This document shows positions 18,348 to 23,110 of a stretch of DNA of 58,442 nucleotides, piece by piece. The notes beneath the pieces were generated by a model, which was given only the letters and a program-made list of their open reading frames with translations, was not told where the DNA came from and ran no database searches. The stretch is from contig CAKZPT010000054.1 of the NCBI GenBank assembly GCA_937139365.1, positions 1-58,442 on the forward strand. Direction: 5' to 3'. The position numbers and the translations under genes were made by a program. The DNA comes from an uncultured bacterium (GTDB lineage Bacteria; Verrucomicrobiota; Kiritimatiellia; PWTM01). Position 1 is the stretch's first letter; every line of letters begins with the position of its first letter.

Positions 18348-19025
18348 TCAGCGAATGACGGGATTGCGGAAGCTCGGCCGCGGGGGTTCGCCCGCCGGCC
18401 CCGGTGGCGGCGGGCGGGGGCCCGCGGAGGGCGAGAATGCGCTCGCGGCGCGATCCGGCGGCGCTCCGGCGGCGGGGCGTTCCTGCGGTGCGGCGGTTCC
18501 CGCGGGCTTTCGGAGGCCCCGGCGCGGCCCGAGCATCATCACCAGCATACGGCCGGCCAGTGTCGGCACCTGGTCCGGCGAGGCGATGTCCGCGCAGTCC
18601 GCCATGACGCGCTGCAGCAGGGCGTAGCCCAACTCCTGGTGGGCGTTTTCGCGCCCGCGGAAGAACAGCGCGACCTTCACGCGATGCCCCTCCTGCACGA
18701 ACTCCCGGACTTTGCGCAGCTTGGTCTGGTAGTCGTGGTCATCCACGTTGGCGTGGAACTGGATCTCCTTGACCCGCGTGGCCACCTGATGACGCCGCGC
18801 CTCGCGCTCCTTTTTCTCCATGTCGTACTTGTACTTGCCGAAATCCATGATCCGACAAACGGGAGGGGAGGCGTTGGGGGCGATCTCCACGAGGTCGAGC
18901 CGTTCCCGCTCCGCCAACGCGAGCGCGTCGCGGGTGCTCATGATTCCGATCTGCTGACCGTCGGGGCCGATAACGCGCACCTCGGGTACCCGGATGCGGT
19001 GATTGGTGCGGATGAATGTCCTGAT
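18348..19025 (-). CDS. infC: Translation initiation factor IF-3, probable ATC start, long C-terminal tail
   Basis: 225 residues if started at ATC 19025. The N domain begins IRTFIRTNHRIRVPEVRVIG and contains GIMSTRDALALAERERLDL, LVEIAPNASPPVCRIMDFGKY is the family signature, and the C domain includes KEIQFHANVDDHDYQTKLRK and KVALFFRGRE. No ATG, GTG or TTG lies upstream in a place that would include the conserved NHRIR block; the first GTG (18980) would remove it. ATC 19025 has a perfect AGGAGG six bases upstream. A rare start codon on infC is the known target of IF-3 self-control. The last 55 residues are a Pro/Ala-rich tail absent from most IF-3 proteins. The gene lies 33 bases after thrS. 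Confidence 0.9.
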   Translation of the reverse strand: MRTFIRTNHRIRVPEVRVIGPDGQQIGIMSTRDALALAERERLDLVEIAPNASPPVCRIMDFGKYKYDMEKKEREARRHQVATRVKEIQFHANVDDHDYQTKLRKVREFVQEGHRVKVALFFRGRENAHQELGYALLQRVMADCADIASPDQVPTLAGRMLVMMLGPRRGLRKPAGTAAPQERPAAGAPPDRAASAFSPSAGPRPPPPGPAGEPPRPSFRNPVIR

Positions 19026-19037
19026 GGCGGACCTCCT
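19023..19037 (-). promoter_or_regulatory. Shine-Dalgarno site that decides the infC start
   Basis: On the minus strand AGGAGG (19037-19032) is followed by six bases and then ATC (19025-19023). This strong site has no ordinary start codon in range, which supports ATC as the authentic start and self-regulation by IF-3 at this codon. Confidence 0.65.
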
Positions 19038-19058: not shown

Positions 19059-20810
19059 CTAGGTTGCCGGGGCGGCGCCCATGCTCGCCGCCTCCTCCTT
19101 CAAACGCGCGATCGCCTCGTTCAGCTTCATCGGACCGAGATCGCCGGCGGTCCGGTGGCGGAGCGCCACCTGGTCCGACTCGGCCTCCCGCGGGCCGACC
19201 ACGGCCATGTACGGCACCTTGTCCGCCTGCGCCTGCCGGATCTTGGCGCCGATCTTATCCGGCGAGGGATCGATCTCCGCGCGCAGGTCGTGCGCCCGGA
19301 GCCGTCCGGCGACCTCCCGTCCGTACTCCGCCACGCGGTCGCTGACGGGCAAGACCCGGACCTGTTCCGGGGCCAGCCACAGCGGAAAGGCCCCGGCGTA
19401 GTGCTCCACGAGAATGCCGAAAAACCGCTCGAGGCTGCCGAGAAGGGCGCGGTGGACCATGTACGGCCGGTGCGCCGCCCCGTCGGCCCCAACGTAGGTC
19501 ATGTCGAACCGCTCCGGCAGGTTGAAGTCGAACTGGATGGTGCTCATCTGCCACTCGCGGCCGATCGCATCGAGCACCTTCAGATCGATCTTCGGTCCGT
19601 AGAACGCCCCGCCGCCGACGTCGGTCTCGTACGGGATCCCCTCGGCCCGCAACGCCTCCTCCAGCGCCGCGGTCGCCCTTGTCCAGCGATCGGCCTCGCC
19701 GACCGCCTTCTCGGGCCGGGTGGCGAGGTAGGCGGCGATGTCCTCGAACCCGAACGCCCGCCACATCGCGCGCGCGAAGCGGATGACCTCGCGGATCTCG
19801 GACTCCATCTGCTCCGGCGTGCAGATGATGTGTGCGTCGTCCTGCGTGAACCCGCGGACCCGCAACAGCCCGTGCAGGACGCCGGCCTTTTCGTAGCGGT
19901 ACACCGTGCCCAGTTCTGCGTACCGCACCGGCAGATCGCGGTACGACCGCCGACGCCCCTTGTACACCTGGATATGGAACGGGCAGTTCATCGGCTTGAT
20001 GAAGTACTCGGCCTCGTCGATCTTCATCGCCGCGTACATGCTCTCGCGGTAGAAGTCGAGGTGGCCGGAGGTTGCCCAGAGGTCCGCCCGACCGATGTGC
20101 GGCGTGTAGAGCAGCTCGTAGCCGGCGCGGAAATGCTCGCGACGCCAGAACTCCTCGATCAAGCAACGGACGCGGGCCCCCTTCGGATGCCAGTGGATCA
20201 GGCCGGGCCCGACCGCCTCCTCGACGCTGAACAGATCCAGCTCGCGGCCCAGCCGGCGATGGTCACGCCGCCGCGCCTCCTCCAGGCGGCCCAGGTACGC
20301 CTCCAGCTCCTCGCGGGAGGGGAATGCCGTCCCGTACACCCGCTGGAGCATCGGGTTGGTCTCGAGGCCATGAAAATACGATCCGGCGACGCTGAGCAGC
20401 TTGAAGGCCCCGATCCGGCCGGTGCTCTCGACGTGCGGTCCCCGGCACAGGTCCCAGAACTCCCCGCTCCGGTACAAGGTGATCGGCTCGCCGTCCGGGA
20501 TTTCCGCCAGCCGCTCCAACTTGTAGGTCTGCCCCGCCGCCTCGAGCCGCCGCCGCGCCTCCTCCCGCGTCACCTCCTCGCGGACAAACGGATGGTCCTC
20601 GGCGACGATCTTCGCCATCTCGCCTTCGATCCGCTCGAAGTCCTCGGTCCCCAGGCGATGCGGGAGGTCGAAGTCGTAGTAAAATCCGTCGTTGGTGGCA
20701 GGGCCGATGTCGAGCCGGACCGGTTGAAAGAGCCGGCACACCGCGGCGGCCATCACGTGGGCCGCGCTGTGACGCATGCGTTCGATGTCCGGCGCCGTGC
20801 CTCGATTCAT
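19059..20810 (-). CDS. thrS: Threonyl-tRNA synthetase without TGS domain
   Basis: 583 residues from ATG 20810. The editing (SAD) domain starts almost at once (RMRHSAAHVMAAAV, FYYDF). It is followed by the class II catalytic core with motif 2 (RYEKAGVLHGLLRVRGFTQDD), the zinc Cys in KPMNCPFH and motif 3 (HRALLGSLERFF), and then the anticodon-binding domain (VRVLPVSDRVAEYG). Bacterial ThrRS is usually about 640 residues with a TGS domain of about 60 residues first; that domain is missing and no remnant is visible before the start. I see no good ribosome site before ATG 20810. thrS-infC order is the classical one, but rpmI-rplT do not follow. Confidence 0.93.
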   Translation of the reverse strand: MNRGTAPDIERMRHSAAHVMAAAVCRLFQPVRLDIGPATNDGFYYDFDLPHRLGTEDFERIEGEMAKIVAEDHPFVREEVTREEARRRLEAAGQTYKLERLAEIPDGEPITLYRSGEFWDLCRGPHVESTGRIGAFKLLSVAGSYFHGLETNPMLQRVYGTAFPSREELEAYLGRLEEARRRDHRRLGRELDLFSVEEAVGPGLIHWHPKGARVRCLIEEFWRREHFRAGYELLYTPHIGRADLWATSGHLDFYRESMYAAMKIDEAEYFIKPMNCPFHIQVYKGRRRSYRDLPVRYAELGTVYRYEKAGVLHGLLRVRGFTQDDAHIICTPEQMESEIREVIRFARAMWRAFGFEDIAAYLATRPEKAVGEADRWTRATAALEEALRAEGIPYETDVGGGAFYGPKIDLKVLDAIGREWQMSTIQFDFNLPERFDMTYVGADGAAHRPYMVHRALLGSLERFFGILVEHYAGAFPLWLAPEQVRVLPVSDRVAEYGREVAGRLRAHDLRAEIDPSPDKIGAKIRQAQADKVPYMAVVGPREAESDQVALRHRTAGDLGPMKLNEAIARLKEEAASMGAAPAT

Positions 20811-20954
20811 TCGGTTCGGGCGGCCCACTACGGCCGGGCGCGGTACGTGGCGCGCGGCGGAGCCATCCAGCGTGGTCAGTTTCGCCGCTTCTCGAAGGAA
20901 AATCAAGCGTCTCCGTCGCCGGCGTCCCGCCTTGCCTTGCGGGGTGCCGGCCGT

Positions 20955-22043
20955 ATGATGTCCTGCGTTCCCGCGATGCCCCACGACTCCGCCAACGACC
21001 CGGCCCCCTCCGCGGAGGCCATGCCCGTGCCGCTCCGCTGGGTGGGGCCGATCCGACTGGCCGGCCCCGACGCGACGGGCGACGTCCGCGTGCCGCTGGC
21101 GACCTTCGAGTCGCCCCTGTGGCCGTCTGTCGACCGCGGCGCGCGGGCCACGCGCGCGGCCGGCGGGATTCGCGTGGTCGTGCTGCGCGAGGGCATGACC
21201 CGGTCGGTGCTGCTCGAGGCCCCCGACGCGGCCGCCGCGGTCGCGGCGGCCTCGGAGATCGAAGCCCGCCAGGGCGACCTCGCGCAGGCCGCGCAGCACG
21301 GCAGCCGCCATGCCCGGCTCTTGGGCCTGCACGCGGAGGTCTGCGGGGCGTTGCTGTACCTCCGCCTGACGTTGGACACCGGCGAGGCCGCCGGCCACAA
21401 CATGGCCACCCGCGCCGCGCAGCAGGCCCTCGACTGGATCGCCCGGCAATGGCCGACGCTGCGGCCTGTCTCCGTCTCCGCGAACTACTGCGTGGACAAG
21501 AAGGTCTCCGCCATCAACGCGATCCTCGGCCGGGGCCGGCAGGCCATCGCCGAGGCGGTCGTGCCGGCGGAGATCTGCCGGACCGTGCTTCGGGTCGAAC
21601 CCGCCGCCATGGCCGACCTCAATCTGAAGAAGAACCTCGTCGGCTCCATCCTCGCCGGTTCGCTGCGGTCCGCCAACGCGCACCATGCGAACATGCTCTT
21701 GGCGCTCTACTTGGCTACGGGGCAGGATGGCGCCAACGTGGTCGAAGGCTCGCAGGGCGTCACGCTGGCGACGGTGGCGGATGGGGCGTTGAGATTTTCC
21801 GTCACGCTGCCCAACGTCATCGTGGGCGTCGTCGGCGCGGGGAAGGACTGCCCGGCTGCGCGGCGGCACCTCGAGGCCCTCGGCTGCGCGCCGGGCACGC
21901 CGGGGGCTGCGCGGCGGCTGGCCGCCATCGCGGCGGCCGTCGTGCTGTGCGGCGAACTGTCGTTGTTGGCCGCGCTGGCCAACCCCGGCGAACTGGTCCG
22001 ATCGCACTTGCGGCTCGAGCGGAAGGGCAGGGACGCACGATGA
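20955..22043 (+). CDS. mvaA: Hydroxymethylglutaryl-CoA reductase
   Basis: About 362 residues. The catalytic set is present: Glu in TFESPLW, Lys in the block NYCVDKKVSAINAILGRG, Asp in ATGQDGANVVE and His in GELVRSHLRLERK. Other core blocks are GHNMATRAAQQAL and GELSLLAALA. The usual nicotinamide loop GTVGGGT is replaced by GVVGAGK. It reduces HMG-CoA to mevalonate with NAD(P)H, the committed step of the mevalonate pathway. It is the first gene of a coupled four-gene operon, divergent from thrS. The exact start is uncertain: ATG at 20955, 20958, 20976 and about 21021 are all in frame and none has a strong ribosome site. Confidence 0.88.
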   Translation: MMSCVPAMPHDSANDPAPSAEAMPVPLRWVGPIRLAGPDATGDVRVPLATFESPLWPSVDRGARATRAAGGIRVVVLREGMTRSVLLEAPDAAAAVAAASEIEARQGDLAQAAQHGSRHARLLGLHAEVCGALLYLRLTLDTGEAAGHNMATRAAQQALDWIARQWPTLRPVSVSANYCVDKKVSAINAILGRGRQAIAEAVVPAEICRTVLRVEPAAMADLNLKKNLVGSILAGSLRSANAHHANMLLALYLATGQDGANVVEGSQGVTLATVADGALRFSVTLPNVIVGVVGAGKDCPAARRHLEALGCAPGTPGAARRLAAIAAAVVLCGELSLLAALANPGELVRSHLRLERKGRDAR

Positions 22044-23110
22044 GCCCGAAACCGCCCAGCGGCTCCGCGACCCGCCGCCGCAAGGAGGAGGCGATCGACG
22101 CCTTCCGCGACGACCCCGGCATCGAGCGCGGCGGCCGTCACTTCGACCGCATCCGGCTGGTCCACCGATCGCTGCCGGAGGTCGATCTGGAGGAGGTGGA
22201 CACCTCCTGCGAATTCCTCGGGCGCCGCCTGTCCTTCCCGCTGCTGATCTCGTCGATGACGGGAGGCAGCTCCAACCGCCTGCGCCGGATCAACCGCAAC
22301 CTCGCCGAGGCGGCGCAGGCCTGCCGTGTGGCGATGGGCGTCGGCTCGCAGCGGGTCATGCTCGAACACCCCGAGGCGGCGGACAGTTTCGACCTGCGGC
22401 CGCTGGCGCCGGACATTCCGCTGATGGGCAACATCGGCGCCGTGCAACTGAACCTCGGCGTCGGCGTGGCGGAATGCCGCCGGCTGGTGGACCATCTCCA
22501 GGCGGATGCGCTGATCGTGCACTGCAACGCGCTGCAGGAGGCCGTTCAGCCGGAGGGGCAGACGCGGTTCGGGGGCGCGATTCAGCGGATTGGCGAACTC
22601 GTCCGGGGGCTGCCGGTCCCGGTCGTCGTCAAGGAGGTCGGCGCGGGTATGTCGCCGGCCGATGCCAGCCGTCTGCTTGAGGCGGGCGTCCGGATCGTGG
22701 ACGTCGCCGGCGCGGGCGGCACGTCGTGGAGCCGCGTGGAGGATCACCGCCGTCGCGCCGCCGGGATCGCCGACGGCCTCGGTCGCGCGTTTGAGGACTG
22801 GGGCATTCCGACCCCGCTGGCGCTGGAGTTGCTCCGGCCGCTGCGCGGGCGGCTGACCCTGATCGCGTCCGGCGGCGTGCGCAGCGGGGTGGACATGGCC
22901 AAGGCGGTCGTGCTCGGCGCGTCCCTGGTGGGGCTGGCGCGGCCGTTCCTCGAGCCGGCGATGGAGTCCGCCGGGCACGTGATCGAGGTGATCGAACGGC
23001 TTCGGCGCGAGTTTCGGCTGGCGATGTGGCTGACCGGGGCGCGCACGATCGCCGAGCTGTGCGGCAACGACGCGCTGCGGCTGCCCGATCCGACGGAGGC
23101 CCGTCCGTGA
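22040..23110 (+). CDS. fni: Type 2 isopentenyl-diphosphate delta-isomerase (FMN)
   Basis: 356 residues. Hallmarks of the FMN-dependent isomerase are RKEEAIDAFRDDP at the N-terminus, LLISSMTGGS, GVGSQRVML, HCNALQEAVQPEGQTRF (the PEG block with the catalytic region), VKEVGAGMSPADA, VDVAGAGGTSW and LIASGGVRSGVDMAKAVVLGA. It interconverts IPP and DMAPP in the cytosol using reduced FMN. The ATG overlaps the stop of the reductase gene (ATGA) and its stop overlaps the next start (GTGA). Confidence 0.93.
   Translation: MSPKPPSGSATRRRKEEAIDAFRDDPGIERGGRHFDRIRLVHRSLPEVDLEEVDTSCEFLGRRLSFPLLISSMTGGSSNRLRRINRNLAEAAQACRVAMGVGSQRVMLEHPEAADSFDLRPLAPDIPLMGNIGAVQLNLGVGVAECRRLVDHLQADALIVHCNALQEAVQPEGQTRFGGAIQRIGELVRGLPVPVVVKEVGAGMSPADASRLLEAGVRIVDVAGAGGTSWSRVEDHRRRAAGIADGLGRAFEDWGIPTPLALELLRPLRGRLTLIASGGVRSGVDMAKAVVLGASLVGLARPFLEPAMESAGHVIEVIERLRREFRLAMWLTGARTIAELCGNDALRLPDPTEARP

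Follow-up and report, generated by a model that had tools for sequence, protein, structure and literature searches.

The gene for translation initiation factor IF-3, infC, starts at AUU in Escherichia coli, where it lies downstream of thrS and is autoregulated by its own product, and the start codon of its Myxococcus xanthus counterpart, DsgA, is AUC. Titles cited in two papers report that the AUU codon places the E. coli gene under IF-3 control (PMC9845219, PMC2268962). Two further cases are described: Staphylococcus aureus infC starts at AUA, where initiating ribosomes were mapped and a Shine-Dalgarno (SD) site was named, and its autoregulation has been suggested by the authors (PMC13009471); the ATT start of Listeria infC has been experimentally confirmed (PMC13068326). 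M. xanthus InfC/DsgA carries a C-terminal extension of 66 residues that is reported to be needed for development but not for translation (PMC2129111).

Here we analysed infC in a 58,442-nucleotide stretch of DNA (the window) from an uncultured bacterium of the class Kiritimatiellia. Like its E. coli counterpart, the gene encodes IF-3, follows thrS and has a rare Ile-type start preceded by an SD site, but it has AUC and not AUU, a longer C-terminal tail and no rpmI-rplT downstream, and feedback is here a proposal. With the infC genes of S. aureus (AUA) and Listeria (ATT) it shares the rare Ile-type start; these belong to another phylum, use other codons and had their starts mapped experimentally, whereas the start in the window was assigned from sequence. 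Its likeness to M. xanthus DsgA, another IF-3 with a long C-terminal extension, is one of analogy.

The infC locus and its initiation region

The reading frame of infC (18348..19025, minus strand) comprises 225 codons from the putative AUC start, followed by a TGA stop codon (18350-18348, minus strand). Its product matched the IF-3 profile TIGR00168 with 213.5 bits (cut-off 60), and the Pfam domains IF3_N (PF05198) and IF3_C (PF00707) at residues 7-76 and 84-167, respectively. Solved IF-3 chains aligned with residues 6-169, and AlphaFold gave pLDDT values mostly above 90 for this core of N and C domains (about residues 6-169; 18519..19010, minus strand). The product is thus a bacterial IF-3 over both domains. 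Several C-domain residues are important for IF-3 function and, in the numbering of chain 8jsg, which we take to be E. coli IF-3, the alignment showed that Y107, K110, R112, R131, R133, R147 and R168 are kept, and that arginines 99, 116 and 129 are His, Glu and Phe, respectively. The first of these replacements may be neutral, since His is the class consensus at that position. With three arginines replaced, start-codon discrimination by this IF-3 is regarded as putative.

On the minus strand, the initiation region of infC reads AGGAGG (19037-19032), TCCGCC and ATC (19025-19023), which confirms the perfect AGGAGG that the initial annotation had placed six bases upstream of this ATC. Upstream, the infC frame is closed by an in-frame TAG (19061-19059), which is also the end of the thrS reading frame (19059..20957, minus strand; TIGR00418 match to residues 62-622 of the stretch). 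A gap of 33 nt separates thrS from infC and contains the SD site and the six-base spacer. An in-frame scan of the 11 codons between this TAG and ATC 19025 revealed no ATG, GTG or TTG, and the earliest ordinary start codon in the frame is GTG 18980. Because of the upstream stop and the lack of ATG, GTG and TTG before the core, this sequence cannot have an ordinary start that retains the N domain. By its sequence, infC is a gene with a start other than AUG, GUG or UUG; ATC 19025 is its start candidate with a well-placed SD site, and AUC 19025 would be the codon used in the cell. It had also been claimed that only this start keeps the conserved NHRIR block of IF-3. This is correct as regards ordinary starts, none of which lies upstream of the core, but ATC 19013 (Ile5) keeps NHRIR as well; that codon lies 18 nt from AGGAGG, too distant for this SD site.

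Such an arrangement can also arise by chance: a 7-nt SD match at the same spacing precedes 5 of the 1942 ATC triplets on both strands of the window, and the SD-ATC block alone is therefore weak evidence. Across the class, an Ile codon with an SD site just before the core was found in 76 of 101 loci, compared with 43 of the 917 Ile codons read in frame within the core. It is the genomic place and the conservation of the predicted AUC start, rather than the SD-ATC block alone, that decide in its favor.

Regarding gene order, rpmI and rplT were not found downstream of infC in the window, which hence departs from the E. coli-type order thrS-infC-rpmI-rplT; both genes sit together on another contig (C58), away from infC. 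Among 38 class genomes, rpmI is beside infC in 12 and apart in 25, the remaining one (G039) having no infC place listed. The family of the window lacks the infC-rpmI link kept by others, and yet the predicted rare start is present. A dependence of the rare start on rpmI linkage was considered and rejected, since by our own reading Ile-type starts occur in 10 of the 12 linked and 17 of the 25 unlinked genomes, with no clear link. The mechanism of the infC start is independent of rpmI-rplT operon order.

Other features of the neighborhood were also recorded. A histone-deacetylase-like gene (PF00850; 17194-18333, plus strand) is convergent with infC, its end lying 14 bases from the infC stop codon, and histone-deacetylase-like motifs were also detected downstream of infC in the same-genus genome G001. 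The N-terminal TGS domain of the thrS product was not matched in Pfam. Further on (20991-23110, plus strand), an HMG-CoA reductase gene (PF00368) adjoins that of an FMN-dependent enzyme (PF01070) that reads like a type 2 isopentenyl-diphosphate isomerase; together they suggest a mevalonate pathway.

Start codons of infC in the family and the class

Seven of eight family genomes share a block consisting of the SD site followed by ATC, AGG or AGA, and AC, with a spacing of 5-6 nt in all seven: the window genome (G000), two genomes of the same genus (G001 and G002) and four others (G005, G006, G007 and G008). The eighth, G004, has a different region upstream of infC, and a profile search of G003 (68% complete) gave no infC match. 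The predicted AUC start is no oddity of the window genome, and the earlier proposal of an AUC start was well supported by the infC starts of relatives. In all seven genomes sharing the block, codon 2 of infC is AGG or AGA (19014-19025 region in the window), codons used for none of the 118 Arg residues of the same IF-3 cores and for a single Arg residue in the adjoining upstream portions of thrS. The family initiation region might hold, in addition to the rare codon, a signal at the nucleotide level, with ATCAGR tuning AUC initiation and infC self-control being free of ribosomal-protein control, a reading that we consider doubtful. A start-hiding hairpin was also examined: in the window, a 4-bp GUCC/GGAC stem can form around the AUC (z -1.08), but it is broken in G001, G002 and G006, and this reading was dropped.

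The window genome contained two infC matches, the second one on contig C69, whereas the other 36 genomes in which infC was matched had one copy each. One open frame of contig C69 aligns with hisC at residues 2-257 and with thrS at residues 245-442; since pieces of both genes are fused in one frame, this contig is probably chimeric, the result of a misjoin that brought in a foreign thrS-infC. In the loci taken from it (L002 and L121; 154-2144), the second infC accompanies this frame, in which the beginning of hisC is joined to the end of thrS. The infC of contig C69 also seems to start at ATC.

infC was found in 186 of the 193 class genomes searched. Start codons were surveyed in the DNA of 101 loci representing 42 families of the class, a non-random sample made up of the best-scoring matches and about one or two loci fetched per family; the contig C69 copy (L002, L003), a duplicate (L004) and the loci from other phyla (L005-L008) were kept out of the class counts. 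In 52 of these loci, belonging to 28 of the 42 families, the stretch from the upstream stop to the core is devoid of ordinary start codons. Assignment based on SD sites was achieved for 82 loci, giving ATT in 47, ATC in 22, ATA in 7, TTG in 4, and ATG and CTG in one each, the Ile-type counts including three rows of family f7 (two ATT and one ATA) that we disbelieve. Since an ATG at -51 is conserved in f7, the automatic assignments of this family (these three and the CTG) are spurious. Ordinary starts are used by some class members (ATG in f7, f13 and f38; TTG in f9), indicating that the Ile-type start can be lost.

In order to compare starts with internal Ile codons, a start list compiled by hand for 36 of the 42 families was used, which left out f5, f7, f9, f13, f37 and f38, the odd members G004, G034 and G035, and some of f16. 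ATT is the majority start in 23 of these families, against 9.2 expected from internal Ile codons, and none of 10000 draws was as high. Weighted by family, the starts were ATT 24.3, ATC 8.8 and ATA 2.9, and the internal codons ATT 9.2, ATC 24.1 and ATA 2.7. Starts thus favor ATT and internal positions ATC, which sets the start codons apart from ordinary Ile codons. Base composition contributes to the choice between ATC and ATT, since GC3 is higher at ATC-start loci (0.77 vs 0.68, p 0.002, the related genomes not being independent). A tree built from 112 IF-3 cores (101 from the class and 11 other members of the phylum), with start types labeled by hand, required nine changes to account for 87 Ile-type and 25 ordinary starts. 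The class most likely had a rare infC start (AUU, AUC or AUA) ancestrally. Outside the phylum, three of the four loci examined have an SD-served Ile codon before the core, being ATC in an acidobacterium (L005) and a member of Melioribacteraceae (L006) and ATT in Peptoniphilus (L007); no clear SD-served Ile codon was seen before the core in a member of Patescibacteria (L008). A search of open-licence papers, in which absence means little, found no literature that deals with the start codon of infC in the class.

Proposed control of infC and alternative readings

We consider it likely that the window carries an ordinary rare-codon infC, translated from AUC 19025 with the help of a strong SD site and working most likely as the E. 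coli gene with its AUU start. IF-3 would reject initiation complexes formed on codons other than AUG, GUG and UUG, so that rising IF-3 would reduce translation of infC from AUC and lower its own synthesis. With rpmI-rplT located elsewhere in the family of the window, the target of this feedback would there be either infC by itself or thrS-infC. The proposed self-control by IF-3 is consistent with, and supported by, the retention of AUU, AUC and AUA across the class, for which feedback is the most economical reason.

The AUC could instead be used as start and just fix a low rate of synthesis, with no feedback by IF-3. The three C-domain arginines replaced in this IF-3 speak for this reading, but AUU, AUC or AUA is retained in most of the 42 families even though a single base change would give AUG, and a low rate could also be fixed by a weaker SD site, yet that of infC is near perfect; we regard it as unlikely. 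Initiation at GTG 18980, where the frame has its first ordinary start codon, would produce a shorter protein with the N domain cut after NHRIRVPE. As R6, I11 and R12 are invariant in the 51 aligned IF-3 sequences, such a start is extremely improbable.

The remaining alternative concerns the Pro/Ala-rich C-terminal tail (18351..18521, minus strand), for which the initial annotation gave about 55 residues past the usual IF-3 end; it was confirmed in frame, with 57 residues after residue 168. Together with the rare start, it could denote a dual-function IF-3 with a developmental role, like DsgA, whose 66-residue extension reportedly serves development and not translation (PMC2129111). The length of the tail favors this reading, but tails in the other family members range from 15 (G007) to about 43 residues, and those of the three same-genus genomes (G000, G001 and G002) diverge soon after GLRK. 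Among class loci they vary from 2 to 89 residues (limits that are displaced by some residues if an alignment stopped short, as for G001 and G002), and Ile-type starts also occur in members with almost no tail. Similar ends were seen in the window (FRNPVIR) and G006 (FRNPAIR), the other family members being different, and no motif common to the Pro/Ala-rich tails was found across the family. AlphaFold predicted no secondary structure for the window tail (pLDDT 53-70), and its codon make-up differs from that of the core mainly at position 2, as expected for Pro and Ala. The tail is probably a variable, disordered appendage. With AUC, AUU and AUA starts common in the class and not specific to DsgA, the likeness to DsgA that had been drawn proved weak, and a DsgA-like role is highly improbable.

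AUU and AUA starts of infC have already been published for other phyla, and the case of the window widens the known range modestly. It has a consequence for annotation, since gene callers limited to ATG, GTG and TTG would miss or shorten this essential gene in the 52 class loci devoid of an ordinary start before the core. For the biology of the group, the predicted starts would extend the range of rare-start infC genes, known from a few model species, to an entire class, in which such a start would be kept even where infC lies apart from rpmI-rplT.
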